Positions 44,571-63,462 of a stretch of DNA of 64,000 nt are shown here, one piece after another; within the stretch, counting starts at the first letter, position 1; each line of letters begins with the position of its first letter. The notes under the pieces were generated by a model. That model was not told the DNA's origin. It was given only the letters and a program-made list of their open reading frames with translations, and searched no databases. The DNA is from Anaeromyxobacter diazotrophicus. GTDB taxonomy: Bacteria; Myxococcota; Myxococcia; Myxococcales; Anaeromyxobacteraceae. The stretch lies in contig NZ_BJTG01000007.1 of the NCBI RefSeq assembly GCF_013340205.1, forward strand, positions 124,001-188,000, given 5' to 3'. Position numbers and translations under genes: made by a program.

Positions 44571-45542
44571 ATGGCAGAGCAGCGAGCCGTCGTCCTCGGC
44601 GCCGCGGGGTTCATCGGTAGCCACCTGTGCGACCGGTTCCTGGGCGAGGGGTGGCGGGTCACCGGCGTCGACAGCCTCATCACGGGAACCCTCCGCAACC
44701 TCGAGCATCTCCGGCGCGAGCCGCGCTTCGACTTCCTCCGCGCCGACATCTGCGACCCGCTCGACGCCCTCGCCGGGCCCGTGGACGCGGTGCTCGACTT
44801 CGCCTCGCCCGCCTCCCCCGTCGACTACCTGAAGCACCCCTTCGAGACGCTGCACGTGGGCTCCATCGGGGTCGAGAACGCGCTCAAGCTCGCCAAGCGC
44901 AGCGGCGCGCGCTTCCTGCTCTCCTCCACCTCCGAGGTGTACGGCGATCCCCTGGAGCACCCGCAGCGCGAGTCGTACTGGGGCAACGTGAACCCCATCG
45001 GCCCGCGCGCCGTGTACGACGAGGCGAAGCGCTTCGCCGAGGCCATCACCATGGCGTACCGGCGGTACGAGCGGGTCGACACCCGCATCGCCCGGATCTT
45101 CAACACCTACGGCCCGCGGATGCGGCTCGACGACGGCCGCGTGGTCCCCACCTTCGCGGGCCAGGCGCTGCGCGGCGAGCCGATCACCGTCTACGGGGAC
45201 GGCTCCCAGACGCGCAGCTTCTGCTACGTGGACGACAACGTCGAGTGCATCTTCCGCCTCCTGCACGCCAGCACCGGCGAGCCCGTCAACGTCGGGACGC
45301 CCCACGAGATGTCGATGCTCGAGCTCGCGAAGTGGGTCCGCGAGGCGGTGGGCTCCAAGGTGGAGCTGGTCTTCCAGCCGCTGCCGCAGGACGACCCGCG
45401 CGTCCGGCGGCCGGACATCAGCCGCGCCCGCGAGCTGCTCGGGTGGGAGCCGCGGGTGCCGTTCGACGAAGGGATGCGCCGGACCATCGCCTGGTTCAAG
45501 GAGCGCATCGAGCGCGGAGACCTCGCCGCCGCCGCGGGCTGA
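44571..45542 (+). CDS. UDP-glucuronate decarboxylase-like SDR (UDP-xylose synthase family)
   Basis: A 323-residue extended SDR. NAD motif [10 protein letters not shown] (residues about 10-19), [12 protein letters not shown], catalytic [24 protein letters not shown] (YxxxK) and [19 protein letters not shown] identify the UXS/UDP-glucuronate decarboxylase group, making UDP-xylose from UDP-glucuronate. UDP-glucose dehydrogenase, which would make its substrate, is encoded at 62164. dTDP-glucose dehydratases are close relatives; the SPAS motif argues for UXS. Confidence 0.88.
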
Positions 45543-46497: not shown

Positions 46498-46647
46498 CGC
46501 CGCCTCCCCGGGTCCCCGCCCCCCCTCCCGTGGAGCGTGCGCGCGGCGCCTCGCCCCCTGCGGCGGCCGAGCGCGAGCCCTACCCTCGTGAGAAGGCGCG
46601 CGCCGGAGCACCGCCGCGCGCGCCGGGACACGGCGAGGGGGAGAGGC

Positions 46648-47298
46648 ATGGCGAGAGGGTCGAGCAGGACCACCACCGATCACGAGGAGATCCGGCGCTG
46701 GGCGGAGGGGCGGGGCGCGTCGCCCGCGGAGGTGGAGGGGACCGAGCGAGGGGGGGAAGACGCCGGCGTCCTCCGGCTGGACTTCCCCGGCTACACCGGC
46801 ACGCCGCCGCTGCGGCACATCTCGTGGGACGACTGGTTCGAGAAGTTCGACGCCTCAGGCCTGGCGCTCGTGTACCAGGAGCAGACGGCGCGCGGGCAGC
46901 GGAGCAACTTCAACAAGCTGGTGGCGCGCGAGGCCGCCGCGGCGCGCGCGCGCGGTGACCGCGGGGCGTCCCGCCGCGCGCGGCGCGCCGGTCCGCGGGC
47001 CGGGCGGAGCGCGGCCGCGAGCAAGGCGGGCCGCGCCAGCGCCGCCGCCCGGCGTCGCGAGGGCACCCGCCGGACGAAGCGGGCCGGCGCCGGCGCGACG
47101 CGGGCGGGGCAGGGGGAGCGGCGCCGCAAGGCGCCGCGCGCGAGCGCGGCCCGGATGGCGGGGGGCCGCGCGCCGGCGAAGCGCGGCGGCTCCCGGAGCG
47201 CGGCGAGCAAGCGGGGCGCCGGCGCCGCGCGGCGCCCCTCGGCCGGCGGGCGCGCGCGCACCGGCCGCGGCAGCCGCCGCCCCACCTCGAAGCGTTGA
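46648..47298 (+). CDS. Conserved-domain protein with histone H1-like basic tail
   Basis: A 216-residue protein in two parts. Residues 10-95 form a conserved acidic domain (EEIRRWAEGRGASPAEVE, LRLDFPGYTG, LRHISWDDWFEKFDASGLAL, SNFNKLV) that I know as a widespread hypothetical family, often misnamed in databases. Residues 96-216 are Arg/Lys/Ala/Gly-rich with SKR, AKR and RRP repeats, like histone H1 tails, and could bind DNA or RNA. The 150-bp gap upstream holds no clear promoter. ATG 46648 follows GGGGGAGAGG. Confidence 0.75.
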   Translation: MARGSSRTTTDHEEIRRWAEGRGASPAEVEGTERGGEDAGVLRLDFPGYTGTPPLRHISWDDWFEKFDASGLALVYQEQTARGQRSNFNKLVAREAAAARARGDRGASRRARRAGPRAGRSAAASKAGRASAAARRREGTRRTKRAGAGATRAGQGERRRKAPRASAARMAGGRAPAKRGGSRSAASKRGAGAARRPSAGGRARTGRGSRRPTSKR

Positions 47299-47304
47299 GC
47301 GCAG

Positions 47305-47874
47305 ATGATCCCCGACCGCGCGGGCGAGCTCGATCTCGACTGGGTGACGCCCGACCTCGCGGTCGGCGGGCGGCTGCCGCTCGCCGCGGCCGGCCGCCTC
47401 GCCCGGGAGCACGGGATCCACCACGTGGTGGACCTGCGCGTCGAGGAGTGCGACGACGAGGCGGTCCTGCGCGCGCACGGCATCGAGCTGCTCCGCCTGC
47501 CCACGCAGGACCTCATGGGCGTCGCGCTGCCGATGCTCGACGACGGGGTGAGCTGGGTCGGCGCGAAGCTGGACCGGGGTGCCAAGGTGCTCGTCCACTG
47601 CCAGCACGGCGTGGGCCGCAGCGCGCTGCTCGCGCTGTGCGTGCTGGTGGCGCGCGGCGACCCGCCGCTCGCGGCGCTCGCCCGGGCCAAGGCGGCGCGG
47701 CGGCGCGTCTCGCCGAGCCCCGGCCAGCTCGAGACCTACCGGGCATGGCTCGCCACCTGGCGGGCGCGCACCGGCCAGGACCTCGCCATCCCGTCCTTCG
47801 ACGAGCTGGCCTGGATCGCCTACAGCCACCTGCGCGAGCCGGCCGGCGGGCAGGCGCGCGGGGCGGCGCGCTGA
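47305..47874 (+). CDS. Dual-specificity protein phosphatase-like protein
   Basis: A 189-residue phosphatase fold. The P-loop HCQHGVGRSALLAL (about residues 97-110) has the CX5R signature; the general-acid Asp is probably in LPTQDLMG. The start, DWVTPDLAVGGRLP, is typical of bacterial DSPs. The last 40 residues are less conserved. It starts 7 bp after the histone-tail protein and is followed after 24 bp by the PRTase-like protein; protein, nucleotide or lipid phosphate could be the substrate. Confidence 0.85.
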   Translation: MIPDRAGELDLDWVTPDLAVGGRLPLAAAGRLAREHGIHHVVDLRVEECDDEAVLRAHGIELLRLPTQDLMGVALPMLDDGVSWVGAKLDRGAKVLVHCQHGVGRSALLALCVLVARGDPPLAALARAKAARRRVSPSPGQLETYRAWLATWRARTGQDLAIPSFDELAWIAYSHLREPAGGQARGAAR

Positions 47875-47898
47875 GCGGCGGGCCGGGCGAGGCCGGGC

Positions 47899-49587
47899 GT
47901 GCTGTACTACGGCGACCGCCTCCGCGAGGCCTCGCCGCGCGAGCTCCTGGCCGCCGCGCGAGCGCGGCTCGGCGAGCGCGGGCCCCAGGCGCCGCGCGCG
48001 GCCTTCCTCGAGGCGGCGTCGCTGGCGCAGGGCCTGGCGGACCGCGCCTTCGAGGCGCGCGGCGAGGACGGGCCCGACGCGCTCGCGGACGCCGCCCTGG
48101 CCCTGACCGCCGCGCTGGCGCGCCGGGCCTGGACCGCCTGGGAGGGCCGGCCGGCGGCGGGCGCGCCCCCGCCGGAGCTGGAGGCGCTCGCCGCGCTGCC
48201 GCTGCCGCCCACCGTGCGAGTGAAGGAGCCGGAGGGCCATGCGCACTACGCGCTCTACCCCGAGACCTACGCGCTCGCCGCGCGCGACCTGCCCCGCGAC
48301 CGTCCGTGGATCGCCGTCGGCGTGCGGAGCATCGGGACTGGCCTCGGCGCGATGGCCGCCGCCGCGCTCGGGGCCGCGGCGCTCGTGACGGTGCGCCCCG
48401 TCGGACACCCGCACGCGCGCGCGCTCCGGCTCTCGCCCGAGCTGCGCGCGCGCCTCGCGGACGCCGCGCGCCGCGGGGCGCGCTTCGCGGTCGCCGACGA
48501 GGGGCCGGGGCTCTCGGGCAGCTCCTTCCTGGCGGTCGCGCGCGCGCTCGACGAGGCGGGCGCGCCGCGCGAGCGGGTCACCTTCCTGCCCGCCCACCTG
48601 AACGACCCCGGTCCGGCCGCGGCCGAGCGGGACCGCGCGCGCTGGCGCGAGGTGGACCGGCGGGTGGTGCCGTTCGAGGAGGCGGTGCTGCCGCGAGTGC
48701 GCGCCGCCGTGACGGCGCTCACCGGCGAGGCCGAGCTGTCGGACCTGTCGGCCGGCGCCTGGCGGGCGCACGCGATCGCGCCGGGCCGCCGCCTCCCGCC
48801 CGTCTTCCGCCAGCAGGAGCGCCGCAAGCTCCTCGCCCGCGCGCGGGGCGGGGCCTGGGTGGCCCGCTTCGCGGGGCTCGGCCGCTGCGCGGAGGAGACG
48901 CTCGCCCTGGCGCGGGCGCTGGCCACCGCCGGCTTCCTCCCGCCGCCGGCCGGGCTCGCCGAGGGCTTCCTCGTGCAGCCCTGGGTGGAGGCGCGCCCGC
49001 TCGAGGAGGTGGACCTCGCCGAGCCGGTGCTCGTGGAGCACCTCGCGCGCTACCTGGCGTTCCGGGCCGGCGCCTTCCCGGCGACGCCGGGAGAGGGAGC
49101 GGACCCGGCGGCGCTGCTCGAGCTCCTGCGGGTGAACGCCGGCGAGGCGCTCGGGCCGGTCGCGGCGGCGGCGGTGGACCGGTACGCAGCCGGCGCCCGG
49201 GAGGCGGCGCGGCTCCGGCCGGTGCGGGTGGACGGCAAGCTGGAGCGGTGGGAGTGGCTCGTGGACGGCGGCGGGCGCCTCGTCAAGGCCGACGCGCTCG
49301 ACCACGCCCGGGGCCACGACCTGGCCGGCGCGCAGCCCATCGCCTGGGACGTCGCGGCGGCGGAGGTCGAGCTGGGGCTGTCGCCGGGCGCCGCCGGGGA
49401 GCTTCGCGCCCGGGTCGCGCCCGGGGCCTCGGCGGGCGCGCTCGCGTTCCTGCGCGCCGCCTACCTCGCCCACCGCCTCGGCCGCTGGACCTTCGCGCTC
49501 GCGACCGAGGGCGACCCCGCGGAGCGGGCCCTGGTCGAGGCGGAGCTGGGGCGCTACCGGGGGCTCCTGGCCACGGCGCTCGGCTGA
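47899..49587 (+). CDS. Two-domain protein: phosphoribosyltransferase-like plus possible kinase-like domain
   Basis: A 562-residue protein I cannot assign to a named family. Residues about 130-280 look like a type I PRTase fold: IAVGVRSIGTGLGAMAAAAL then VADEGPGLSGSSFLAVARAL (about 198-217), comparable to the PRPP-binding DEGxxxGS loop. From about 300 (RRKLLARARGGAWVARFAGL) to the end there is a segment with kinase-like features: an early basic strand, FLVQPWVEARPLEEVD as a hinge-like region, and VDGKLERWEWLVDGG with VKADALDHARGHDL. The APH/kinase reading is tentative. GTG start; weak Shine-Dalgarno. It lies 24 bp after a DSP phosphatase. Confidence 0.6.
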   Translation: MLYYGDRLREASPRELLAAARARLGERGPQAPRAAFLEAASLAQGLADRAFEARGEDGPDALADAALALTAALARRAWTAWEGRPAAGAPPPELEALAALPLPPTVRVKEPEGHAHYALYPETYALAARDLPRDRPWIAVGVRSIGTGLGAMAAAALGAAALVTVRPVGHPHARALRLSPELRARLADAARRGARFAVADEGPGLSGSSFLAVARALDEAGAPRERVTFLPAHLNDPGPAAAERDRARWREVDRRVVPFEEAVLPRVRAAVTALTGEAELSDLSAGAWRAHAIAPGRRLPPVFRQQERRKLLARARGGAWVARFAGLGRCAEETLALARALATAGFLPPPAGLAEGFLVQPWVEARPLEEVDLAEPVLVEHLARYLAFRAGAFPATPGEGADPAALLELLRVNAGEALGPVAAAAVDRYAAGAREAARLRPVRVDGKLERWEWLVDGGGRLVKADALDHARGHDLAGAQPIAWDVAAAEVELGLSPGAAGELRARVAPGASAGALAFLRAAYLAHRLGRWTFALATEGDPAERALVEAELGRYRGLLATALG

Positions 49588-49594
49588 GCGCCGC

Positions 49595-50479
49595 TCACCG
49601 CGCGTACCGCCTCGTCATCCGCGCGCAGAAGTCGGCGAACTCCTCCACCCGCTGCGGCGGGCTCGTGTGGTGGGGCCGCACCCCGCGGTGCTCGGGCGTG
49701 AAGCAGTAGGTCACGGTCACGTCGAACGGCTCGAGCGCGCGCATCTGCCGGTCGAACCACGCCTCGGCGCCCTCGCGGAAGCTGTCGGCCCAGGAGAGCC
49801 CGGTGCGCAGCTTCTTCACCCCCAGCTTCCGCAGCCACGCGACGCCGTCGTCGAGGCGCGGGTCCTGGAAGTGGAACCACTGGCAGATGCCGAGCGCGGG
49901 CGTGTAGTCGGCGAAGTGGCGCAGCGCGAGCTTGGGGGCGCCGTCCTCGCGGAGGAGCCCCATGTAGAAGTGCCGGTAGTAGGAGGAGCCCTCCGCCTCC
50001 CGGTGGCGGGTGGTGGCGGGCCAGGCCCTGGGCAGGTCGAAGAGGCTGTACCAGTGCACCCGCGGCGCCCGCTCCAGGATGAGCTCGGCGGTCCGGCGCA
50101 GCCCGAACTCCTGCACCTCCTCCGCGCCGAAGCTCGAGACGCCCACCTCGCTCACCCACACCGGGTGGCGCACCGCGGCCCGGACCTCGTCGAGGCGCGC
50201 CGGCCACTCGTGGATGGGCCAGTGGTTCCAGTCGAGGGGGAAGCCGTGGACCGCCACCGCGTCGACCGCGTCGAGGGCGCCGTGGTCGCCGAGGAGCCGC
50301 AGGAAGGCCGGGTCGATGGGGGAGATGCCGCCCAGCACCCGCGTCACCTCCGCCTCCGCCGCCACGGCGGCGCCCGCGGCGCGCACCATCGCGCCGAACG
50401 TCGCCCACTGCGGGTCGAGCTGGAAGTCCCAGTGCGAGAGGTTGTTGGGCTCGTTCCAGAGCATGACGGCCTCGATCAC
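49595..50479 (-). CDS. Glycosidase-like TIM-barrel protein, apparently circularly permuted
   Basis: A 294-residue protein. It opens with VIEAVMLWNEPNNLSHWDF, where WNEP carries the general acid Glu of clan A glycosidases (residue 10), and has a second Glu in VWVSEVGVSSFG (about 110), the nucleophile position. The second half (LGICQWFHFQDPRLDDGVAW onward, RTGLSWADSF, TVTYCFTPEHRG, EEFADFCARMTRRY) reads like the first half of a GH39-type barrel, so the order appears permuted. No signal peptide. GTG start overlaps the methyltransferase stop by 4 bases. Likely acts on a glycoside made by this cluster. Confidence 0.75.
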   Translation of the reverse strand: MIEAVMLWNEPNNLSHWDFQLDPQWATFGAMVRAAGAAVAAEAEVTRVLGGISPIDPAFLRLLGDHGALDAVDAVAVHGFPLDWNHWPIHEWPARLDEVRAAVRHPVWVSEVGVSSFGAEEVQEFGLRRTAELILERAPRVHWYSLFDLPRAWPATTRHREAEGSSYYRHFYMGLLREDGAPKLALRHFADYTPALGICQWFHFQDPRLDDGVAWLRKLGVKKLRTGLSWADSFREGAEAWFDRQMRALEPFDVTVTYCFTPEHRGVRPHHTSPPQRVEEFADFCARMTRRYAR

Positions 50480-51261
50480 GGCGGCCCCTCCTCGCCGGCC
50501 GCCGGTCCGCGCGCGGGGTACACCGCGCCGTCCGGCGTGGGCCGCGCGCCGCGGCGGCAGAGGTAGACCTCGGTCCCGGGCACCGCGCGCGGCTCGAAGC
50601 CGGAGGCCCGGAGCAGCGCCTCCGCCCCGGCGCGGTTCGGGATCCACCAGTTGGTCCAGTCGCGGGCGTAGGCGTGCTCCACGAAGTGGAGCTTGGGCCA
50701 GGAGGGGTGATCGAAGATCTCGCGCTCGTCGAACGGGTAGTCGCGGGCGACCGGGAACGCGCCCTGCGAGCCGCGCAGCATGCTCTGGAAGACGAGCGTC
50801 TCGCCCACCGCGTGCTCGTGGAGGAGGTCGAGCGCGAGCAGCGGGTGCCGCAGGTGGTAGAGCACGCCCATGAACAGCACCAGGTCGAAGCGCTCGCCGA
50901 GCCGGGCGACGTCGTAGACCGAGAGCTGGCGCAGCTCCAGCTCCAGCCCGGAGACCTCGCTGGCCAGCCGCGCCTGCGCCAGGTACCGCTCGTCCGAGTC
51001 GAGCCCCACCACCCGCGCCGCCCCGCGGCGCTTCATCTCCAGCGAGAAGAACCCGGCGTTGCAGCCGACGTCGAGCACGGTCCGGCCGTCGAGCCGCGCC
51101 GGGAGCGCGTCCGAGATGGCGCGCCAGACGATGGCGGGGTAGTCGCCGAGGAAGTGGTCCGGCGCCGTCCGGACGCCGCCCAGGTCGAGGTTGTGGAACC
51201 AGTCGCCGAGCGCGTGGACGCGCCGCTCGATCTCCTGCCTGGACAGCCCGCTCCGGGACAT
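50476..51261 (-). CDS. SAM-dependent methyltransferase
   Basis: A 261-residue enzyme with SAM motif I VLDVGCNAGFFSLEMKRRG (residues about 62-80), Asp of motif II in VVGLDSDERY and LVLFMGVLYHLRHPLLAL as the post-II region. The wording is like CmoB and the TIGR04290 group of cluster-associated methyltransferases, but it lacks a tRNA context. It may methylate a sugar or lipid-linked product. ATG 51261 has GGGGGG-A-G sequence upstream; the C-terminus is Pro/Gly/Ala-rich. Confidence 0.85.
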   Translation of the reverse strand: MSRSGLSRQEIERRVHALGDWFHNLDLGGVRTAPDHFLGDYPAIVWRAISDALPARLDGRTVLDVGCNAGFFSLEMKRRGAARVVGLDSDERYLAQARLASEVSGLELELRQLSVYDVARLGERFDLVLFMGVLYHLRHPLLALDLLHEHAVGETLVFQSMLRGSQGAFPVARDYPFDEREIFDHPSWPKLHFVEHAYARDWTNWWIPNRAGAEALLRASGFEPRAVPGTEVYLCRRGARPTPDGAVYPARGPAAGEEGPP

Positions 51262-51306: not shown

Positions 51307-53127
51307 CTATGCAGCCGGGGCGCGGGCGTTCATCGCCCGCCGGGGCGCGGCGCGCTCCGGCGCCGGCGCGAGCAGGCCGCGGGTCTGCTTCAGGACCAGG
51401 CGGGCGTACTCGCCGCCGCGCGCCATCAGCTCGGCGTGCGAGCCCTGCTCCGCGATGCGGCCGTCGCGCAGGACCAGGATGCGATCGGCGTTCACCACCG
51501 TCGAGAGGCGGTGGGCGATGGAGAAGGTGGTCCGCCCCGCCATCACGCGGTCGAGCGCCTCCTGCACGAGCGCCTCGGACTCGGCGTCGAGGGCGCTCGT
51601 CGGCTCGTCCAGGATGAGGATGGCGGGCCGCTTGAGGAGCGCCCGCGCGATGGCGATCCGCTGGCGCTCGCCGGCCGAGAGGCGCGCGCCGCGCTCGCCG
51701 ACCACGGTGTCGTAGCCCTGCGGCAGCCGGCTCACGAAGTCGTGGGCGTTGGCGAGCCGCGCCGCCTCCTCGATCTCCTCCCGCGTGGCCTCGGGGCGCC
51801 CGTAGGCGATGTTCTCGCGCACCGTCTCGTTGAAGAGGAGCGCGTCCTGCAGGACGGCGCCGATCTGCCGGCGGACCGAGCGCTGGCGCAGCTCGCGCAG
51901 GTCCCGGCCGTCCACCCTCACCGCCCCGGCGATCGGGTCGTAGAAGCGCTGCAGCAGGGTGACGAGCGTGGTCTTGCCGGCGCCGCTCGGGCCCACCAGC
52001 GCCACGCGCTCGCCCGGCCGGACGTGGAGGTCGATGCCGTCGAGGAGCAGCGGCCCGCCGGCGAAGCGGAAGGAGACCCCCTCGAAGTGCACCTCGCCCC
52101 GGAGCGGGCCGGGCTCCGAGGCGGCGGGCGCATCGGCGAGGGCGTCCTCGGTGTCGAGCAGCGAGAACACGCCGTCGAGGGACACCTTGGCCGTCTGCAG
52201 CGTCCGGTAGACGCCGGAGAGCCCCTGCACCGGCGCGAAGAGCGAGCCGAGGTAGCCGAGCACCGCGACCAGCGTGCCCACGGTGACCTGGCCCCGGAGC
52301 ACGAGCGCGCCGCCGACCGCCAGCGTCGCCAGCCGCGCGGCGGCGGCCACCGCGCTCTGCAGCGCGCCCACCCCGGCGTCGTAGGCGACGCCGTCCCGCA
52401 CCACCTCGTTCGCCTCGCGGACCTGGCCGAGGAAGCGCTTCCGCTCCGCGTCCTCCATCGCGAAGCTCTTCACGGTGACGATCCCGGAGAGCACCTCGTT
52501 GAACCGGGAGTAGATGCGGGCCCAGCGGTCGAGCAGCGCCTTCTCGCGGCGCGTCTGGCGCGGGGCCGCGGCGAAGGCGATGAGCGCGGGCAGCGGCGCG
52601 AAGAGGACCACCGTCGCGGCGAGGCGGACGTCGAGGCGGAAGAGGATGGCGCTCGCCAGGGCCAGGTACACGACCGAGGGGACCACGTTGAACGCGACCT
52701 CGTGCAGGCCGTTCACGAACCCCTGCACGTTCCGGTCGAGCCGGGTCATCACCGCGCCGACCGGCTCCTGGCGGTGGAACGCGACCGGCAGCCCGTGCAG
52801 CGCGGTGACGCACTGCTCGGTGATGGCGAACTGCACCTGGAGCCGCGTCCGCCAGGTGAGCCAGTTGCCGAGCGCCCCGCCCGCCTCGCGGGCGAGGTAG
52901 ACGCCCGCCAGGAGGAGCACGCCGCGCACGAGCGGGCCGCGGGCGCCGGAGCCGAGGCCGTCGATGACGCTGCGGAGGACGAGCGGCTCGGCGGCGGAGA
53001 GGCCCGCGGCGCCGAGCGCGAGCGCCAGGATGCCGGCGATGGGGAGCGCGTGAGGCCGGAGGAACGCCAGGGCCCGGCGGCGCGGAGAGGGCCTCCGGGC
53101 GGGGGCGAAAAGGTGGAGGCGCTCCAT
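51307..53127 (-). CDS. ABC exporter (fused membrane and ATPase domains)
   Basis: A 606-residue half-transporter of the MsbA/lipid-exporter type. About six membrane helices (about 20-330), then the nucleotide-binding domain: Walker A VGPSGAGKTTL (about 405), Q-loop GAVLQDALLF, signature LSAGERQR, Walker B ILILDEPTSALD, H-loop AHRLST. It dimerises and exports a hydrophobic or glycosylated product; in a glycan cluster a glycolipid or glycoside is likely. Its ATG lies within a perfect palindrome (53124-53140). Confidence 0.94.
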   Translation of the reverse strand: MERLHLFAPARRPSPRRRALAFLRPHALPIAGILALALGAAGLSAAEPLVLRSVIDGLGSGARGPLVRGVLLLAGVYLAREAGGALGNWLTWRTRLQVQFAITEQCVTALHGLPVAFHRQEPVGAVMTRLDRNVQGFVNGLHEVAFNVVPSVVYLALASAILFRLDVRLAATVVLFAPLPALIAFAAAPRQTRREKALLDRWARIYSRFNEVLSGIVTVKSFAMEDAERKRFLGQVREANEVVRDGVAYDAGVGALQSAVAAAARLATLAVGGALVLRGQVTVGTLVAVLGYLGSLFAPVQGLSGVYRTLQTAKVSLDGVFSLLDTEDALADAPAASEPGPLRGEVHFEGVSFRFAGGPLLLDGIDLHVRPGERVALVGPSGAGKTTLVTLLQRFYDPIAGAVRVDGRDLRELRQRSVRRQIGAVLQDALLFNETVRENIAYGRPEATREEIEEAARLANAHDFVSRLPQGYDTVVGERGARLSAGERQRIAIARALLKRPAILILDEPTSALDAESEALVQEALDRVMAGRTTFSIAHRLSTVVNADRILVLRDGRIAEQGSHAELMARGGEYARLVLKQTRGLLAPAPERAAPRRAMNARAPAA

Positions 53128-53154: not shown

Positions 53155-54318
53155 TCAGGAAGGACAGGTACCCGATAGAACAGGGGTTTCTGGCGCGGAG
53201 GGCCCACAGCCACCCACCCCCGGGACCGGGTGCCCGAGCGCGCTCAGGATGGCGCAGAGCTCGTCCACGCGGTGCGCGCAGGTGTGGCGCGCCCGGACGG
53301 TCTCGAGCCCGCGCGCCGCGAGCCCGGCGGCGAGCGCGGGATCGCCGAGCACCGCCCGGAGGTGGCGCGCCATCTCGGCGCCGTCCCGGGCGACGAGGAA
53401 GTCCTCGCCGGGCCGGAACAGCCCCTCGGCGTCCCGCCACGGCGCCGAGACGAGCGGGATCCCGCACGCCAGCGCCTCGAAGGGCCGGATGGTCGGGATG
53501 CCCGGCAGGGCGAGGACGTACGGCCGGCGCGGCACGTGGACGGTCACCCGGTGCGCCGCGAAGGCGCGCGGCGCCTCGAAGTTCGGGAGGTAGCCGCGGT
53601 AGGCGACGCCCGCCTCGGAGAGCGCGCGCCGCGCCGCCTCCGGGTAGCGGACCCCGTGGACGCGCGCGCGCAGCCCGAGCGCCCGGACCGGCCCGAGCAG
53701 GAACTCGTGCAGCTCCGCGGTGCGCTCCTCGTCGCCCCAGTTGCCGATCCAGACCAGGTCGCCTTCTCCCGGGACGCCCGGGAGCGGCCGGAACACGCGC
53801 GTGTCGGCCGCCTCGTGCCAGGTGAAGGCGCGCCGCGCCCAGCCGCGGCGCAGGTAGAGCTCGCGGATGACCTCGCCGAACGCCAGGACCGCGTCGTAGC
53901 CGTCGAGGTCGAAGGCCGCCATCGCGCCCGGGTCGGTGACCGCGCGGTGGTGGGTGTCGTGGAAGAGGAGCGCGTACCGGCCCCCGCGGCGGCGGTGGGC
54001 GCCGACCTGGCGGACGAGCGCCGGGTCGCTCCACTCGTGCACGAGCACGAGGCCGGCGCCGTCGAGCGCCTGGTCGAGGTCGAGCGCGTCGAGCCGGTAG
54101 CGCTCCGGGGCGAGCCGTGGGTAGGCGGCGTGGAACCCCGCGAGCGCTTCCGGCCCGGCGTCGGCGAGCAGGTTCGAGAGGCTCCAGCCGCCGTCCGGCT
54201 CGAGGAGCCGGACCTCGTGGCCGCGCGCCGCCAGCTCGGTCGCCACCCCGCGCAGGAAGTGGGCGTTCCCGTGGTTCCAGTCGGACAGGGCCGAGTGGCA
54301 GAAGATCACCACCCGCAC
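53155..54318 (-). CDS. CgeB-type glycosyltransferase 1
   Basis: A 387-residue GT-B glycosyltransferase resembling CgeB proteins: N-terminal IFCHSALSDWNHGNAHFLRG, LLFHDTHHRAV, then VWIGNWGDEERTAELHEFLL and the C-terminal donor-site segment IRPFEALACGIPLVSAPW with LFRPGEDFLVARDG. The nucleotide-sugar donor is unknown. It overlaps the preceding GT4 gene by 13 bases (GTG 54318). The final 20 residues (Gly/Pro-rich) are not conserved. Confidence 0.87.
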   Translation of the reverse strand: MRVVIFCHSALSDWNHGNAHFLRGVATELAARGHEVRLLEPDGGWSLSNLLADAGPEALAGFHAAYPRLAPERYRLDALDLDQALDGAGLVLVHEWSDPALVRQVGAHRRRGGRYALLFHDTHHRAVTDPGAMAAFDLDGYDAVLAFGEVIRELYLRRGWARRAFTWHEAADTRVFRPLPGVPGEGDLVWIGNWGDEERTAELHEFLLGPVRALGLRARVHGVRYPEAARRALSEAGVAYRGYLPNFEAPRAFAAHRVTVHVPRRPYVLALPGIPTIRPFEALACGIPLVSAPWRDAEGLFRPGEDFLVARDGAEMARHLRAVLGDPALAAGLAARGLETVRARHTCAHRVDELCAILSALGHPVPGVGGCGPSAPETPVLSGTCPS

Positions 54319-55421
54319 GACGCCGCCTCCGGCGCGCTCGCGGCCCGCCCGGCGAGCAGCGCGCGGTAGGCCTCGAGGTAGCCGCTCGCCATGCGCTCCG
54401 GCGAGAGGGTGAGGCCCCGCTCGCGCGCGAGCGCGCCCATCCTGGCGCGCAGCTCGGGCCGCTCCGCGAGCCGGCGCAGCGCCGCCGCGAGCCCCTCCGC
54501 CGACGCGGGGTCGACGAACAGCGCGGCGCCGCTCCACAGCTCGCGCAGAGAGGGCGTGTCGCCCAGCACCAGCGCGCAGCCGGCCAGCGCCGCCTCCAGC
54601 ACCGAGAGGCCGAACGGCTCGTAGCGCGCGGGCAGCGCGTAGACGGCGGCGCGGCGGAAGAAGTTCGCCAGCGCTTCGGGGCGGAGGCGGCCGAGCGGGC
54701 GGGCGTGGCGCGAGCGCGGGGCGGGGGCGCCGGCCGCGTCCGGGTGCGCCTCCTCGCCCGCGAGCAGCACCGGCCAGGGGAGGTCGCCGGCGACCGCGTC
54801 GAGCAGCCGCGCGTTCTTCGCCTCGTCCCACAGCCGCCCCGCGCAGAGGATGAACGGCTCCTTCTCGGCGGGGGTGAAGCGCGCCGGCGAGCGGCCGTTG
54901 GGGATGACGCGGGCGCGGGGCAGGGGGCCGTGGTGGCGCTCGAGCGCCTCCAGCATGAAGCGCGTCGGCGCGACCACCAGGTCCGCCCCGCGGAGGCCCC
55001 GCGCCACCTCGGCGCGGTAACGGGCGAAGCTCGGCGGCGGGGGCTCGCCCCGGACCGCCTCGAACCAGGAGCACACGCAGGAGTGGCCGACCACCAGCCG
55101 CGGCGCCGCGAACGGCAGGGCGCCGTGCGCGAACTCGTCGAGGTGGACCACGTCCGGGGCGAGCCGCGCCTCCAGCTCGAGCAGCCAGTCTCCAGCGCGG
55201 GCCACGTCCTCCCAGGGCTCCTCCATCCACTCCAGCCGGCCCTGGCTCTCGAACACCTCCAGCCCGGAGATCCGCCGCGCCTCGTCCCACTGGTCGGGGG
55301 AGAGCATCCGCCCCTGCGTGGCCAGCGCCACCTGCGCGCCCGCGCGGCCGAGCGCCGCCGCCAGTTCGAGGGCGTAGGTGAAGACGCCGCCCACCGTGTC
55401 GGCGGTCATGAGGACGTTCAC
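54306..55421 (-). CDS. Glycosyltransferase family 4
   Basis: A 371-residue GT-B enzyme: N-terminal MTADTVGGVFTYALELAAAL, acceptor side with VVGHSCVCSWFEAV, and the retaining-GT signature PARYEPFGLSVLEAALAGC (Glu pair, about 290-308) with the donor loop RLWDEAKNARLLD. It transfers a sugar with retention, probably onto the product of this operon. GTG 55421 overlaps the oxidoreductase stop by 4 bases. Confidence 0.92.
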   Translation of the reverse strand: MNVLMTADTVGGVFTYALELAAALGRAGAQVALATQGRMLSPDQWDEARRISGLEVFESQGRLEWMEEPWEDVARAGDWLLELEARLAPDVVHLDEFAHGALPFAAPRLVVGHSCVCSWFEAVRGEPPPPSFARYRAEVARGLRGADLVVAPTRFMLEALERHHGPLPRARVIPNGRSPARFTPAEKEPFILCAGRLWDEAKNARLLDAVAGDLPWPVLLAGEEAHPDAAGAPAPRSRHARPLGRLRPEALANFFRRAAVYALPARYEPFGLSVLEAALAGCALVLGDTPSLRELWSGAALFVDPASAEGLAAALRRLAERPELRARMGALARERGLTLSPERMASGYLEAYRALLAGRAASAPEAASCGW

Positions 55422-56551
55422 GGTCGGGCCACCGCGGCGGCCGCGTAGACGCCGTCGAGGACCTCCGCCACGCGCACGATCCCCTCCACCTCGGGATCGT
55501 AGCGGCCGCCCGCGGCGAGCGCCGCCGCGAAGGCGACCGCCGCCCGGCCGCCCCAGGCGTCGGGGGGCCCGGCCAGCCGCTCGCGCGCGGTGCCACGGAA
55601 GCGCTCGACCGTGAAGTCGTAGAACGAGCCGTTCACGTTGCGGAGCGCGGCGCCCCCCTCCGTCCCGTAGAACGAGGCCTCGATGACGCAGTCGCACCCC
55701 GCCGGCAGCCGCCAGGAGCAGGCCAGCCGGAGGGCGGGCCCACCGGGCACCTCGAGCAGCGCCGCGACGTGGTCCTCCACCTCGTCGCGCCCGGCGAGCG
55801 GGTGGCCCTGGGCGGAGGCGCGCGCGCCGACCACCGCCACCTCCGGGAAGTCGAGCGCCCACAGCGCCAGGTCGACGAGGTGGATGCCGAGGTCCATGAG
55901 GCACCCGCCGCCCGCCTGGCGCGCGTCGTAGAACCAGGCCTTGTCCGGTCCGTACGCGTTGTGGAAGACGAGGTCGACCGCGTAGACGCGGCCGAGCGCG
56001 CCGCCGCGGACGAGCTCGCGCAGGGCGGGGACGCCGGCCACGAAGCGGTAGGACAGGTCGACCGCGAGCAGCCGGTCCGCGGCGCGCGCCGCGTCGGCCA
56101 CGCGCCGCGCCTCGGCCGCATTGCGCCCGAGCGGCTTCTGGCAGAACACGGCCCGCCCGCGCTCGAGCGCCCGCACCGCCTGCTCGGCGTGGAGCGCGCT
56201 CGGGGTGGCGATGACGACGCCGTCGAGCGGGAGCTCCAGCAGCGCGTCGAGGGAGGACAGGGCGAGGCACCCCGGCGCCACCTCGGCGGCGGCGCGCGCC
56301 GGCCCCGCGGCCGCGTCCGCGACCGCCGCCACCTCGGCCAGCCCGCTCCGCGCCACCGCCTCCAGCCGGTGCTTGCCGATCCAGCCCACCCCGAGGAAGC
56401 CGAGGCGCGGCCGCCGCGAGGAGGCGGCCGCGGCAGCGGCCGAGCTCGCGGTCGCGGCCGACTTCGCGTTCGCGTTCGCGGTCGAGGTCGCGGTCGAGGT
56501 CGCGGTCGAGGTCGAGGTCGAGGTCGCGGTCGAGGTCGCGGTCGCGCTCAC
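55418..56551 (-). CDS. Gfo/Idh/MocA-family oxidoreductase
   Basis: A 377-residue NAD(P)-dependent dehydrogenase. About 45 N-terminal residues are Ala/Thr/Ser repeats encoded by a GGTCGN array; the Rossmann fold then starts with LGFLGVGWIGKHRLEAV. CQKPLGRNAAEARRV (family EKP-type motif) and GGGCLMDLGIHLVDLALWAL are present. It probably oxidises or reduces a hydroxyl of a sugar or inositol, perhaps together with the Zn-dehydrogenase encoded just upstream. GTG start overlaps that gene's stop. Confidence 0.92.
   Translation of the reverse strand: MSATATSTATSTSTSTATSTATSTANANAKSAATASSAAAAAASSRRPRLGFLGVGWIGKHRLEAVARSGLAEVAAVADAAAGPARAAAEVAPGCLALSSLDALLELPLDGVVIATPSALHAEQAVRALERGRAVFCQKPLGRNAAEARRVADAARAADRLLAVDLSYRFVAGVPALRELVRGGALGRVYAVDLVFHNAYGPDKAWFYDARQAGGGCLMDLGIHLVDLALWALDFPEVAVVGARASAQGHPLAGRDEVEDHVAALLEVPGGPALRLACSWRLPAGCDCVIEASFYGTEGGAALRNVNGSFYDFTVERFRGTARERLAGPPDAWGGRAAVAFAAALAAGGRYDPEVEGIVRVAEVLDGVYAAAAVARP
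56446..56551. repeat. GGTCGN hexamer array, locus 4
   Basis: About 105 bp of GGTCGC/GGTCGA units and decayed versions (GTTCGC) immediately after the GTG start of the Gfo/Idh gene, giving a long Ala-Thr/Ser-Thr tail ahead of the Rossmann fold. Confidence 0.85.
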
Positions 56552-57543
56552 ATCGTCACCAGGGCCTTCATGAACCCCTCCGGCCGGTCGCGCAGCGCCG
56601 CGAACGCCTCGCCGATCCGCTCGAGCGCGACGGCGTGCGTGTAGAGCGGCCGCGGGTCGAGCCGCCCTTCCGCCACCGCGGCCACCGCCAGTCGCATCCC
56701 CTCCGCGTAGACCGCCGGGTTCCGCTCGTGCGCGTTCACCACGTCGATCCCGCGCCAGTTCCAGGACTGCAGGTTCACCGTCCGCGTCCCGTCCTGGTGG
56801 TACCCGGCGATCACCAGCCGCCCGCGCTCGCGCACGAGCTCGCCGGCGAGGTCGAGCGGGAGCTGCGCCCCGGCCGCCTCGATCGCGACGTCCAGCATCC
56901 GCCCGCCGGCGGCCGCCTTGACGCGCTCGAACGTCGGCCAGAGCTCGCCCAGGGGGACCACCTCCGCCGCGCCCATGCGCCGCGCCACCTCGAGCGCGGA
57001 CGGCCGGCGCCCCACCGCCACCACCCGGGCGCCGGCGCCGGCGGCCAGCGCGGTGAGGACCGCGCCCAGGAACCCCACCCCGACCACCGCCACCGCCTGC
57101 CCCGCCTCGACGCCGCTGCGGCGGAAGGCGTTGACCGCGCAGGCGAGCGGCTCCCCGGGGAAGGGCGCGCCGTCGAGCGCGCGCGGGAGCTTCACCGCCG
57201 CGGCCGCGTCGACCACCTCGTAGTCGGCGAACGCGGCCGCCCCGAGGCAGGCCACCCGGTCGCCCTCGGAGAGCGCCCGGACCCCGGCGCCTGCCGCGTC
57301 GACGCGCCCCCACCCCTCGTGGCCCGGCGCGCCGGGCGCGAGCGGGTAGCTGAACCAGGGGCGGCCCTCGAACACCGGCAGGTTCGAGCCGCACAGGCCC
57401 GAGCCCTCCAGCCGGATCCGCACCTGGCCCGGCCCGGGCTCGGGGCGCGCGACGTCCGCGAGCTCGAGGCGGCCGGGCCCCGCGAGGACCGCGGCGCGCA
57501 TGCGCTGCGCGCGGCGCGGCCGGGGGGAGGTGGCGGGGTCCAT
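56548..57543 (-). CDS. Zinc-type (medium-chain) alcohol/polyol dehydrogenase
   Basis: A 331-residue MDR-family protein: GSGLCGSNLPVFEG near residue 50, PGHEGWGRVD (His-Glu of the catalytic zinc), GVGFLGAVLTALAAGAGARV (Rossmann) and an SGHA-free C-terminal part. The catalytic Cys (LCGSN) and GHE are present; the structural-zinc Cys cluster is not seen. Substrate probably a polyol or sugar intermediate. ATG 57543 has GGAGGG upstream; another ATG at 57501 is possible. Confidence 0.88.
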   Translation of the reverse strand: MDPATSPRPRRAQRMRAAVLAGPGRLELADVARPEPGPGQVRIRLEGSGLCGSNLPVFEGRPWFSYPLAPGAPGHEGWGRVDAAGAGVRALSEGDRVACLGAAAFADYEVVDAAAAVKLPRALDGAPFPGEPLACAVNAFRRSGVEAGQAVAVVGVGFLGAVLTALAAGAGARVVAVGRRPSALEVARRMGAAEVVPLGELWPTFERVKAAAGGRMLDVAIEAAGAQLPLDLAGELVRERGRLVIAGYHQDGTRTVNLQSWNWRGIDVVNAHERNPAVYAEGMRLAVAAVAEGRLDPRPLYTHAVALERIGEAFAALRDRPEGFMKALVTM

Positions 57544-57557
57544 GCTCGGCCCTCCGG

Positions 57558-58622
57558 TCAGACGTGCGCCTCGGCTACGGCGGCGCCGCCGGCGGGGCGC
57601 TCGTCGGCGCGGAGCCAGACGTACAGCCGCTGGATGCCCTCGGCCACGCCGACCGCCGGGCGCCAGCCCAGGGCGCGCTGCAGCTTGCGGGTGTCGGAGA
57701 CGTACCAGCGCTGGTCGGCCGCGCGCCACGGCGCGAAGGCCACCTTCGGCCGGTGCCCGCCGAGGGGCTCGAGGGCGCCCACGAGCTCGAGCAGGGAGAG
57801 CGTCCGCTCCGGGCCGCCGCCGACGTTGTAGGCGGCGCCCGCCAGGCGGTGCATCCCGGCGCGGGCGAGCAGGAAGGCGTCGACGAGGTCCTCCACGAAC
57901 AGGGCGTCGCGCACCTGCTTGCCGTCGCCGTAGATGGTGATGGGCTCGCCGCGCAGCGCGGCGCGCAGGAGGTGGGCGAGCCAGCCCTGGTCCTCGTTCC
58001 CGTGCTGGTGCGGCCCGTAGATGCAGCTCATGCGGAACACCGCCGCGGGCAGCCGGTAGGTGCGGGCGTAGTCGAGCACGTACTGGTCGGCGGCGCCCTT
58101 GGAGCAGCCGTACGGGCTGTGGAACGCGAGCGGGCGCGCCTCCGAGACGCCCCGCGCCCAGGGGCTCCCGGGCGGCGGCGTGTACCGGAGCGGGCCGGCC
58201 GCGACCGCCACGTCGTCGAGCGCGCCGTACACCTTGTTGGTGGAGGTGAACACGAGGGGCGGCGGCGTCGGCAGCCCCCGCAGCGCCTCGAGCAGGTGGA
58301 GCGTGCCGCGCGCGTTCACCTCGAAGTCGCCGAGCGGGTCGGCGAGGCTGGTCGTGACCGCCACCTGGGCCGCGAGGTGGAAGACCGAGGTGGCCCCGCG
58401 CAGCGCGCGCGCGAGGCGCGCCGCGTCGCGCACGTCCCCGCGCTCGAGCTGGACCCGCGCGCCGTGCTCGGCGAGGAGCCAGCGGAGGTTCCGCTCCGTC
58501 CCCGGGCGCGACAGATCGTCGTAGAGCAGCACCTGCTCGCCCTCGCGCGCGAGCCGGTCGGCCAGGTTGGTGCCGATGAAGCCCGCGCCGCCGGTGATGA
58601 CCGTCCGCCTCGTCGCGCTCAA
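57558..58622 (-). CDS. NAD-dependent epimerase/dehydratase (CDP-paratose 2-epimerase-like)
   Basis: A 354-residue extended SDR with TGGAGFIGTNLADRLAREGE, HLAAQVAVTTSLADP, STNKVYG, HSPYGCSKGAADQYVLDYAR (catalytic YxxxK) and RMSCIYGPHQHGNEDQGW, the latter wording matching CDP-tyvelose/paratose epimerases. It starts at TTG 58622, 6 bases after GGGGGAGG; there is no closer ATG or GTG giving an intact Rossmann fold. C-terminus GGAAVAEAHV. Confidence 0.87.
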   Translation of the reverse strand: MSATRRTVITGGAGFIGTNLADRLAREGEQVLLYDDLSRPGTERNLRWLLAEHGARVQLERGDVRDAARLARALRGATSVFHLAAQVAVTTSLADPLGDFEVNARGTLHLLEALRGLPTPPPLVFTSTNKVYGALDDVAVAAGPLRYTPPPGSPWARGVSEARPLAFHSPYGCSKGAADQYVLDYARTYRLPAAVFRMSCIYGPHQHGNEDQGWLAHLLRAALRGEPITIYGDGKQVRDALFVEDLVDAFLLARAGMHRLAGAAYNVGGGPERTLSLLELVGALEPLGGHRPKVAFAPWRAADQRWYVSDTRKLQRALGWRPAVGVAEGIQRLYVWLRADERPAGGAAVAEAHV

Positions 58623-58638: not shown

Positions 58639-59763
58639 TCAGATGGACAGCCCCAGCGCCGCCAGCTTCGAGGCCGCCTCGTGGACGCGGTCGTGGGGCA
58701 GCTGCCCCTCGAGCCAGCCCGCGAGCTCGCGCAGCCCGTCCTCGAAGTCGACCCGCGGCGCGTACCCGAGCACGCGCCGGGCGCGCTCGATGTCGGCGAA
58801 GCAGTGGCGGATGTCGCCCATCCGGTACTTGCCGGTGATCTCCGCCGCGAGCCGCTCCTGCCCCAGCACCGCGGCCAGCCGCTCGGCCACCTCACGGACC
58901 GTGAAGCTCCGCCCGCTGCCGACGTTGAACACCTGCCCGGCCGCGGCGGGCACCTCCAGCGCCAGCCGGCAGGCCTGCGCCACGTCGTGGACCGAGACGA
59001 AGTCGCGCCGCTGCAGGCCGTCCTCGTTCACGAGCGGTGGACGGCCGTTGAGGAGGCGGGCGGCGAAGATGGCGAGCACGCCGGTGTACGGGTTCGAGAG
59101 CGCCTGGCGCGTCCCGTAGACGTTGAAGAAGCGCAGCGCGACCGTCGGGATGCCGTAGGCGCGCCCGGCGGTCAGGCACAGGCGCTCCTGGTCGAACTTC
59201 GTGAGCGCGTACACGCTCGGCAGCGCGGGCGCCTTCCCCTCGGGGGTCGGCAGGGGCGCGAGCGGCTCGCCCGCCGGCCCGACGGGCTCCCACTCGCGCC
59301 GCGCGAGCTGGGCCAGCGTGCGCTCGGCGCCCGGGAACGGGAGCCTCCGCGCGTCGCGGTAGAGGCCCTCGCCGTAGAGGCTCATGCTGGAGGCCACCAC
59401 CAGCCGCTCGACCGGACGTTCGATGAGCGCCTCCAGCAGGACCGCCGTGCCGACGGCGTTGACCGAGGTGTACCGCTCGATCTCGTACATGCTCTGGCCC
59501 ACGCCCACCATGGCGGCCAGGTGGTAGACGGCGTCGACGCCCTGCAGCGCCCGCCGGACGGCGGCCCGGTCGCGCACGTCCCCCACCACCAGCTCGACCT
59601 CGCGATCGAGGTACGTCGGGCGGGTGGCCCCTTCCCCGTGCACCTGCGGTGAGAGGTCGTCGAGGGCGCGGACGCGGTGGCCGCGCGCGAGCAGGTGATC
59701 GGCGAGGTGCGAGCCGATGAAGCCGGCCCCGCCGGTGATGAGGATGGTCCGCGCAGTGGGCAT
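58639..59763 (-). CDS. NAD-dependent epimerase (dTDP-L-rhamnose 4-epimerase-like)
   Basis: A 374-residue extended [68 protein letters not shown] (catalytic YxxxK) and RFFNVYGTRQALSNPYTGV. A 40-residue insertion near AREWEPVGPAGEPL precedes the Tyr, as in enzymes annotated as rhamnose 4-epimerases. First gene of the minus-strand cluster; GGAG lies 8 bases before the ATG at 59763. Confidence 0.88.
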   Translation of the reverse strand: MPTARTILITGGAGFIGSHLADHLLARGHRVRALDDLSPQVHGEGATRPTYLDREVELVVGDVRDRAAVRRALQGVDAVYHLAAMVGVGQSMYEIERYTSVNAVGTAVLLEALIERPVERLVVASSMSLYGEGLYRDARRLPFPGAERTLAQLARREWEPVGPAGEPLAPLPTPEGKAPALPSVYALTKFDQERLCLTAGRAYGIPTVALRFFNVYGTRQALSNPYTGVLAIFAARLLNGRPPLVNEDGLQRRDFVSVHDVAQACRLALEVPAAAGQVFNVGSGRSFTVREVAERLAAVLGQERLAAEITGKYRMGDIRHCFADIERARRVLGYAPRVDFEDGLRELAGWLEGQLPHDRVHEAASKLAALGLSI

Positions 59764-59929
59764 GCAGGTCGCTCCGCGAGCAAGAAGCTGCAACCCCCAC
59801 GCCCGACCTGCAACCCGCCGCCGCCGTCAGCACGCACAGTGCACCGCGCCGCGCGCGTCTCTCGCGGCGATGCCTCTCGGCACCGGAGGTCACATGTTGT
59901 GGTGACGCCCCCGCGGAATGGAGACGCGC
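59764..59929. promoter_or_regulatory. Divergent control region of the glycan cluster
   Basis: A 166-bp gap between the two divergent transcription units. It contains the exact direct repeat CTGCAACCC at 59788-59796 and 59808-59816, 20 bp apart (two helical turns), a possible activator or repressor site. No unambiguous -35/-10 pair was found; a weak GG-N10-GC sigma-54-like match (GGGCGT-N5-TTGCA, minus strand) overlaps one repeat. Confidence 0.4.
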
Positions 59930-61018
59930 ATGCACATCGCCTTCTTCGGCTCCAGCCTGGTGTCGGCCTACTGGAACGGGGCGGCGACGTATTACCGGGG
60001 GCTCCTCCGGGCGCTGGCGGGGCGAGGGCACGCCGTGACCTTCTACGAGCCCGATGCCTTCGATCGCCAGGCACACCGCGACATCCCGGACCCGCCGTGG
60101 GCGCGGGTGGTCGTCTGGCAGCCGGGGCAGCCGGAGGCGCTCGATCGCTGCCTCAGCGAGGCGCGGCGCGCCGATCTGGTGGTGAAGGCGAGCGGGGTCG
60201 GCGTGCTCGACGCGGAGCTGGAGCGGCGCGCGCTCGAGCTGCGCCGGCCCGGCAACGCGGTGATCTTCTGGGACGTCGACGCGCCGGCGACGCTGGAGCG
60301 CGTCGCGTCGGACCCGGCCGATCCGTTCCGGGCGCTGGTGCCGCGCTACGACGCGGTGTTCACCTACGGCGGCGGCGCGCCGGTGGTGCGCGCGTACCGA
60401 TCGCTCGGTGCGCGGGCGTGCATCCCCATCTACAACGCGCTCGACCCCGAGACGCACCACCCGGCGCCGGCCGACCCGCGGCTGGCGGCGGACCTCGCCT
60501 TCCTCGGCAACCGGCTCCCCGATCGCGAGGCGAGGGTGCGGGCGTTCTTCCTCCGCGCGGCGCAGCGGCTCCCCGGCAGGCGCTTCGTGCTGGGGGGCGC
60601 CGGCTGGGGCGACCTCGCGCTGCCCGCCAACGTCCGCTGGCTCGGGCACGTGCCCACCGGCGACCACAACGCGCTCAACTGCTCATGCACGGCCGTGCTC
60701 AACGTGAACCGCGACAGCATGGCGCGCTTCGGGTTCTCCCCGCCGACGCGCGTCTTCGAGGCGGCCGGCGCCGGCGCGTGCGTCGTCACCGACGCCTGGG
60801 AGGGGCTCGAGCTCTTCCTCGAGCCGGGGCGCGAGGTGCTCGTCGCGCGCGACGGCGAGGAGGTGGCGGAGCACCTCGCCGCCCTCCAGCCGGCGCGCGC
60901 CCGGCGCCTCGGGGCGGCGGCGCTGCGGCGGGTCCTCGCGGAGCACACCTACGCGCAGCGGGCGCGCCAGGTGGAGGTCGCCCTGGACGAAGGCGGCGCC
61001 GCTCGGGAGATCGCGTGA
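59930..61018 (+). CDS. CgeB-type glycosyltransferase 2
   Basis: A 362-residue GT-B protein: MHIAFFGSSLVSAYWNGAAT at the start, VIFWDVDAPATLERV, LAFLGNRLPDREARVRAFFL and the donor-site stretch TRVFEAAGAGACVVTDAWEG with LEPGREVLVARDG. It is paralogous to the next gene. The ATG at 59930 is favoured because GGAG precedes it by 7 bases; an in-frame ATG lies 12 bases upstream. Confidence 0.87.
   Translation: MHIAFFGSSLVSAYWNGAATYYRGLLRALAGRGHAVTFYEPDAFDRQAHRDIPDPPWARVVVWQPGQPEALDRCLSEARRADLVVKASGVGVLDAELERRALELRRPGNAVIFWDVDAPATLERVASDPADPFRALVPRYDAVFTYGGGAPVVRAYRSLGARACIPIYNALDPETHHPAPADPRLAADLAFLGNRLPDREARVRAFFLRAAQRLPGRRFVLGGAGWGDLALPANVRWLGHVPTGDHNALNCSCTAVLNVNRDSMARFGFSPPTRVFEAAGAGACVVTDAWEGLELFLEPGREVLVARDGEEVAEHLAALQPARARRLGAAALRRVLAEHTYAQRARQVEVALDEGGAAREIA

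Positions 61019-62163: not shown

Positions 62164-63462
<1,299 letters not shown>

Follow-up and report, generated by a model that had tools for sequence, protein, structure and literature searches.

A pair of adjacent genes in a 64,000-nucleotide stretch of Anaeromyxobacter diazotrophicus DNA (hereafter the window) encodes a phosphatase and a 562-aa protein that represents a new fusion family, in which a PRTase fold is joined to a kinase-like domain. The two genes very likely belong to a biosynthetic cassette. Given the sugar and inositol genes that surround them, a set conserved in myxobacteria and plant-associated bacteria, they probably help to build a sugar compound of unknown structure rather than acting in defence.

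We use BIG as a working label for the 562-aa protein of the window and DSP for the phosphatase. Their adjacency, already described in the initial annotation as a CX5R phosphatase beside a 562-residue protein, is confirmed by the two ORFs, listed here with the two regions of BIG discussed below.

47305-47874, forward strand: DSP, dual-specificity/tyrosine-type phosphatase with intact HCX5R (189 aa; Pfam DSPc, conserved residues)
47899-49587, forward strand: BIG, 562 aa, no named family, 24 bp beyond DSP
48496-48525, forward strand: PRPP-loop-like motif DEGPGLSGSS, BIG residues 200-209 (immediately follows a predicted strand; invariant residues)
49222-49308, forward strand: putative kinase-like catalytic region, BIG residues ~442-470, VRVDGKLERWEWLV...GRLVKADALDHA (conserved residues; APH alignment)

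Third-position GC (GC3) of both ORFs is 0.98, typical of the surrounding genes, and the start codon of BIG is backed by an N-terminal 'MLVYGD' kept in most homologues. DSP matches Pfam DSPc with 40.3 bits (cut-off 33.5). Both features that mark members of the DSP/PTP group, the HCX5R signature and a general acid Asp, are present in it: HCQHGVGR provides the C-X5-R motif, and its C and R, together with the aspartate of an upstream LPTxD (the general acid), are invariant in 29 homologues. A further gene (46537-47298, forward strand) ends 6 bp upstream of DSP; its product, in which a short domain that looks conserved precedes a long tail rich in Arg, Lys and Ala, had no Pfam or PADLOC match.

BIG consists of a helical N-terminus (residues 1 to ~100), a type I PRTase domain (~115-265) and an APH/choline-kinase-like C-terminal half (~296-562). 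It had no match among Pfam, NCBIfam, PADLOC or PHROG models. Pfam searches with 24 BIG homologues gave scattered single-member matches, none consistent and none to a PRTase model, and searches of the PDB with full-length BIG, by single sequence and by profile, gave nothing beyond non-significant matches. The PRTase assignment comes from structural models. An AlphaFold2 model of full-length BIG was poor overall (pLDDT 48, two-sequence alignment) and better in the 120-265 region, where it placed a strand at 195-199, DEGPGLSGSS directly after it and a helix at 206-219; VIA-align returned mostly PRTases for residues 112-267 of this model (best Z 10.9, 132 residues, rmsd 3.1). Residues 95-293 folded alone reached a pLDDT of 64 (two-sequence alignment), and this model retrieved PRTases in Foldseek at probability 1.00 (best E 1.5e-4) and PRTase-fold proteins in 50 of 50 VIA rows (Z 11.6 to 9.6). 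As modelled, residues ~115-265 adopt the fold of type I PRTases; the refuting outcome named in the initial annotation, a structure prediction without a PRTase fold, thus did not occur.

The PRPP-loop-like motif that had been noticed mid-protein is indeed found at residues 200-209. Its residues D200, E201, G202, P203, S206, G207, S208 and S209 are identical in 24/24 homologues from Myxococcota and Alphaproteobacteria, so that the motif is not there by chance; G141-x-R143 and R166-P167-x-G169-x-P171 are also invariant in the same alignment. A PRPP-binding loop with an acidic pair after a beta strand is thus present in BIG, and PRPP-dependent transferase activity is predicted. With the type I PRTases (APRT, UPRT, XGPRT, HGPRT) BIG shares the predicted fold, the order of strands and loops, and the acidic pair and Ser/Gly loop after the beta strand at the PRPP position. 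The usual loop of these enzymes follows the pattern D-D-x-x-x-T-G-G-T, whereas that of BIG, D-E-G-P-G-L-S-G-S-S, is one residue longer; BIG differs also by its fused N-terminal helices and kinase-like half, and by having no Pfam PRTase match. The Ter-linked family PRTase_3 (PF15610) was considered and rejected, there being no Pfam match to it in BIG or the 24 homologues; a genome-level search for PRTase_3 found none, but its controls were silent as well.

For residues 296-562 the full-length model is too poor to be usable. The C-terminal half was compared by hhalign with a profile of 47 diverse APH sequences, which replaced a narrower first APH set, using 60 column shuffles, the reversed profile and the wrong (PRTase) half as controls. 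Its score of 33.4 exceeds the shuffle maximum (21.7), the PRTase half (19.2) and the reversed profile (11.6). The sole PDB profile matches of BIG were choline kinases, 4r77 (E 1.6) and 3dxq (E 1.1), neither significant alone. In the global profile alignment residues ~442-470 fall on the HGDxxxxN...D region of APH, with D465 aligned to the DFG-like Asp, the second metal-binding position; D445 and W453 are invariant in BIG homologues, as is W483-D484, and D465 is kept in 23/24. Resemblance to the APH/choline kinases (PF01636 and relatives) is therefore supported at the profile level, above controls, for the N-lobe and the overall order of the half, which remains below Pfam detection. The catalytic loop is atypical: HGDxxxxN is absent from BIG, and across the 24 homologues (T/V)D(N/G)(K/R)LHxWEW takes its place. 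The kinase-like character first read from this half thus survives in the profile match and is qualified by the loop.

The APH match and the invariance of D445, W453 and W483-D484 could also be taken to mean that catalysis resides in the kinase-like half, which would phosphorylate a cyclitol or sugar intermediate, with the phosphatase later removing this phosphate and the PRTase domain serving as a PRPP or nucleotide sensor instead of a transferase; the PRTase-fold regulators PurR and PyrR are indeed among the structural matches of the BIG models. We regard this as unlikely, since the catalytic loop differs from HGDxxxxN and sequence conservation is stricter in the PRTase loops (R143, R166, D200-S209) than in the kinase loop. 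Moreover, a divergent BIG homologue with 33% identity (genome G189, locus L055, 1501-2907, reverse strand) keeps D200-P203 and S206-S209, but in its kinase-like half D465, E452 and D468 are gone.

The pair sits in a cassette (window 44.5-62.1 kb) that comprises a TIGR04290 methyltransferase, glycosyltransferases, epimerases, inositol-dehydrogenase-like oxidoreductases and an ABC exporter, and that was overlooked when the layout was first described as two genes alone. Apart from DSP and BIG, its genes are the following.

44571-45542, forward strand: NAD-dependent epimerase/decarboxylase-like (Pfam); 60-79% identical genes adjoin BIG in loci L094, L095 and L105
45565-46497, forward strand: second NAD-dependent epimerase-like (Pfam); 79% identical gene in L105
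49598-50485, reverse strand: putative glycoside hydrolase-like ('beta-xylosidase' in public records); 67% identity to an Azospirillum cassette protein
50479-51261, reverse strand: TIGR04290 family methyltransferase (361.5 bits, cut-off 300)
51310-53127, reverse strand: MsbA-like ABC exporter (permease and ATPase); 61-70% identical genes in other myxobacterial cassettes
53158-54327, reverse strand: glycosyltransferase, 63% to cassette GT2
54309-55421, reverse strand: family 4 glycosyltransferase, 44% to cassette GT1
55421-56413, reverse strand: Gfo/Idh/MocA oxidoreductase; nearest named family inositol 2-dehydrogenase (score under the cut-off); 58% to the Sinorhizobium cassette gene
56551-57516, reverse strand: zinc-binding dehydrogenase; nearest named family scyllo-inosose 3-dehydrogenase (score under the cut-off); 55% to a cassette gene
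57561-58604, reverse strand: epimerase/dehydratase of the cassette, 53% to a cassette gene
58642-59748, reverse strand: epimerase/dehydratase of the cassette, 59% to a cassette gene
59918-61018, forward strand: glycosyltransferase, 61% to cassette GT3
61096-62124, forward strand: glycosyltransferase, 56% to cassette GT4

Queried with cassette proteins of Azospirillum, Sinorhizobium and Roseomonas, the window genes at 49.6-62.1 kb proved 44-67% identical to those of the Azospirillum/Sinorhizobium cassette and similarly grouped. This set includes the hydrolase-like protein (which matches Glyco_hydro_cc weakly, below cut-off), the methyltransferase, two dehydrogenases, two epimerases and four glycosyltransferases, while the ABC exporter and the two remaining epimerases are found again in cassettes of other myxobacteria. 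The cassette glycosyltransferases are followed at once by a gene (62164-63462, forward strand) that reads like a UDP-glucose dehydrogenase, judging from the translation only.

In NCBIfam, TIGR04290 describes a methyltransferase and TIGR04295 a B12-radical SAM protein ('B12_rSAM_oligo'), and the cassette that carries them is presumably the one named rhizo-twelve. The window has a TIGR04290 member, its neighbours match an Azospirillum cassette holding both, and its shared genes for glycosyltransferases, epimerases and dehydrogenases lie together at a single locus; as a difference, we found in it no gene for TIGR04295, for inositol-3-phosphate synthase (Ino1) or for a CobC-like histidine phosphatase. 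The TIGR04295 protein of Azospirillum used as a tblastn query gave no match in the window, and TIGR04295 is unannotated in the S. meliloti and Ensifer loci too.

The same gene set surrounds BIG in several other genomes (G003, G114, G143, G146, G080 and others), and in Azospirillum brasilense, S. medicae, S. meliloti (on pSymB), Ensifer, Rhizobium and Roseomonas BIG is located within the cassette or next to it. A search of openly accessible literature on the TIGR04290/TIGR04295 cassette and its product found nothing; a paper with a locus tag near the S. meliloti cassette mentions an ABC sugar-binding gene only (PMC12542648). Our genome survey covered 195 Myxococcota genomes, one per species, and sampled Alphaproteobacteria mainly through plasmids. 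The distribution of BIG is patchy overall: it was present in 28 of the 195 Myxococcota genomes, and in Alphaproteobacteria it resides on large plasmids. TIGR04290 was found in 18 of the 195, namely 16 of the 28 with BIG and 2 of the 167 without. Counting against the proposed reading, BIG is far from TIGR04290 in 9 of the 16 genomes holding both. The BIG-DSP pair is distant from the methyltransferase in several genomes of the same family, and the linkage is therefore strong, not absolute.

Co-occurrence of the two genes, a check proposed in the initial annotation, is pronounced. A close DSP (a match with E below 1e-40) was present in 26 of the 28 Myxococcota genomes with BIG vs 23 of the 167 without it, and in 23 of the 28 it immediately precedes BIG, both genes being on one strand. 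Fisher p values for association with BIG were 1e-16 for DSP and 4e-14 for TIGR04290; they ignore shared ancestry and are descriptive only. Five BIG-carrying genomes stand outside the 23. In one of them (G016) BIG is at a contig end; in two (G080, G082) BIG lies in the cassette and DSP does not adjoin it, two (G083, G189) are without any close DSP, and these four count against the proposed reading.

Outside Myxococcota the phosphatase changes. DSP was not found in the Alphaproteobacteria carrying the cassette; most of these have instead a CobC-like histidine phosphatase and Ino1 beside BIG, and in Methylobacterium, where BIG is outside the cassette, a different histidine phosphatase directly follows it. 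That unrelated phosphatases take one place beside BIG suggests that dephosphorylation accompanies BIG. Two observations count against this reading: BIG is outside the cassette and has no adjacent phosphatase in A. lipoferum (L112) and A. ramasamyi (L113), and the CobC-like phosphatase, being directly beside Ino1, could simply dephosphorylate inositol-phosphate. In L112 and L113 BIG adjoins an ABC transporter gene, for sulfate transport in L113. Plasmids of Roseomonas isolates from human skin (Roseomonas mucosa, L059) carry BIG with inositol-3-phosphate synthase, a histidine phosphatase and glycosyltransferases. On pSymB of S. meliloti ml56 (L116, 14435-15507) the inositol-3-phosphate synthase match is in two pieces in different frames with no gene listed, and this gene may thus be frameshifted in that strain.

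Many genomes carry DSP alone. We had expected a dedicated DSP clade beside BIG and did not see one; solo and BIG-adjacent DSPs are intermixed in the DSP tree, from which it follows that DSP and BIG form no obligate dedicated pair. DSP might even be a common myxobacterial phosphatase with a substrate of its own, upstream of BIG by chance and without a joint pathway step. The intermixed tree would agree with this, as would the 23 Myxococcota genomes that have a close DSP without BIG and the three solo loci that we inspected, where DSP lies among unrelated genes. It is nevertheless improbable in view of the same-strand position directly upstream of BIG in 23 of 28 genomes and of the unrelated phosphatase in its place in Alphaproteobacteria. 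A second DSP copy within the BIG-less cassette of G050 (L100, 11343-11855), between hydrolase-like and zinc dehydrogenase genes, also speaks against a bystander.

The neighbourhood bears likewise on the two functions first suggested for an isolated two-gene module, signalling and defence, neither of which is supported for a pair embedded in a large and widely conserved cassette for sugar/cyclitol biosynthesis. The combined PRTase, kinase-like and phosphatase content would be compatible with a cycle in which DSP would undo the action of BIG, either synthesis of a nucleotide-like signal or phosphoribosylation of a protein. We find such a cycle very unlikely among neighbours that are biosynthetic enzymes and an exporter, with no sensor or effector gene seen in the cassette. 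An anti-phage module formed by BIG and DSP might explain the patchy distribution and the location on large plasmids in Alphaproteobacteria, yet neither protein has a PADLOC match, homologues of the pair were not found in phages or viral contigs, and linkage to sugar metabolism genes is frequent, all of which makes defence extremely improbable. The PADLOC model 'mad2' matches only the cassette methyltransferase, presumably via a generic methyltransferase domain.

A specific mechanism can be put forward tentatively, at slightly less than an even chance: BIG would phosphoribosylate a cyclitol or sugar acceptor from PRPP, and the adjacent phosphatase would then remove the phosphate. From the PRTase fold, conservation, neighbourhood and association established above we infer here a reaction, an acceptor, an order of steps and a product. 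The cassette would first make an acceptor derived from inositol or from a nucleotide sugar, as suggested by Ino1 and the inositol-dehydrogenase-like genes in Alphaproteobacteria and by the dehydrogenases, epimerases and glycosyltransferases of the window. The PRTase domain, to judge from its fold and invariant PRPP-loop residues, would move the 5-phosphoribosyl group from PRPP onto this acceptor. Removal of the 5-phosphate would fall to DSP in Myxococcota or to the CobC-like histidine phosphatase in Alphaproteobacteria, a step proposed on the basis of proximity and of replacement by an unrelated phosphatase. The kinase-like half may either phosphorylate the acceptor or merely bind it, and the end product would be a sugar- or cyclitol-derived compound, built and exported by the cassette.

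Chemistry of this kind has precedents. In butirosin-ribostamycin biosynthesis BtrL/BtrP, a PRTase and a phosphatase, ribosylate neamine; a PRTase followed by a separate phosphatase on a cyclitol-containing acceptor would equal the chemistry proposed for BIG. The surrounding genes there differ from the BIG cassette, and we know of no kinase-like half in that system. In cobalamin synthesis the PRTase CobT is likewise followed by an alpha-ribazole phosphatase, CobC. CobT is not a type I PRTase, and the phosphatase of the alphaproteobacterial cassettes reaches 126 bits against the model for alpha-ribazole phosphatase, short of the cut-off of 162.9. A more far-reaching proposal, which we hold with considerable doubt, is that BIG is a bifunctional PRTase and kinase of a new family and serves to build a cyclitol oligosaccharide bearing ribose, either a natural product or a glycan of the cell surface, which myxobacteria would share with plant-associated Alphaproteobacteria including the model symbiont Sinorhizobium meliloti.

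The joining of a PRTase to a kinase-like domain lies outside the coverage of Pfam and NCBIfam, although two phyla keep it well conserved within the cassette. Given that the cassette is present on pSymB of the genetically easy Sinorhizobium meliloti, its product and the role of BIG are accessible to gene deletion combined with the analysis of metabolites. Should the proposed reaction prove right, BIG and its phosphatases would represent a way of ribosylating glycans or cyclitols during their biosynthesis that has no name in sequence databases.
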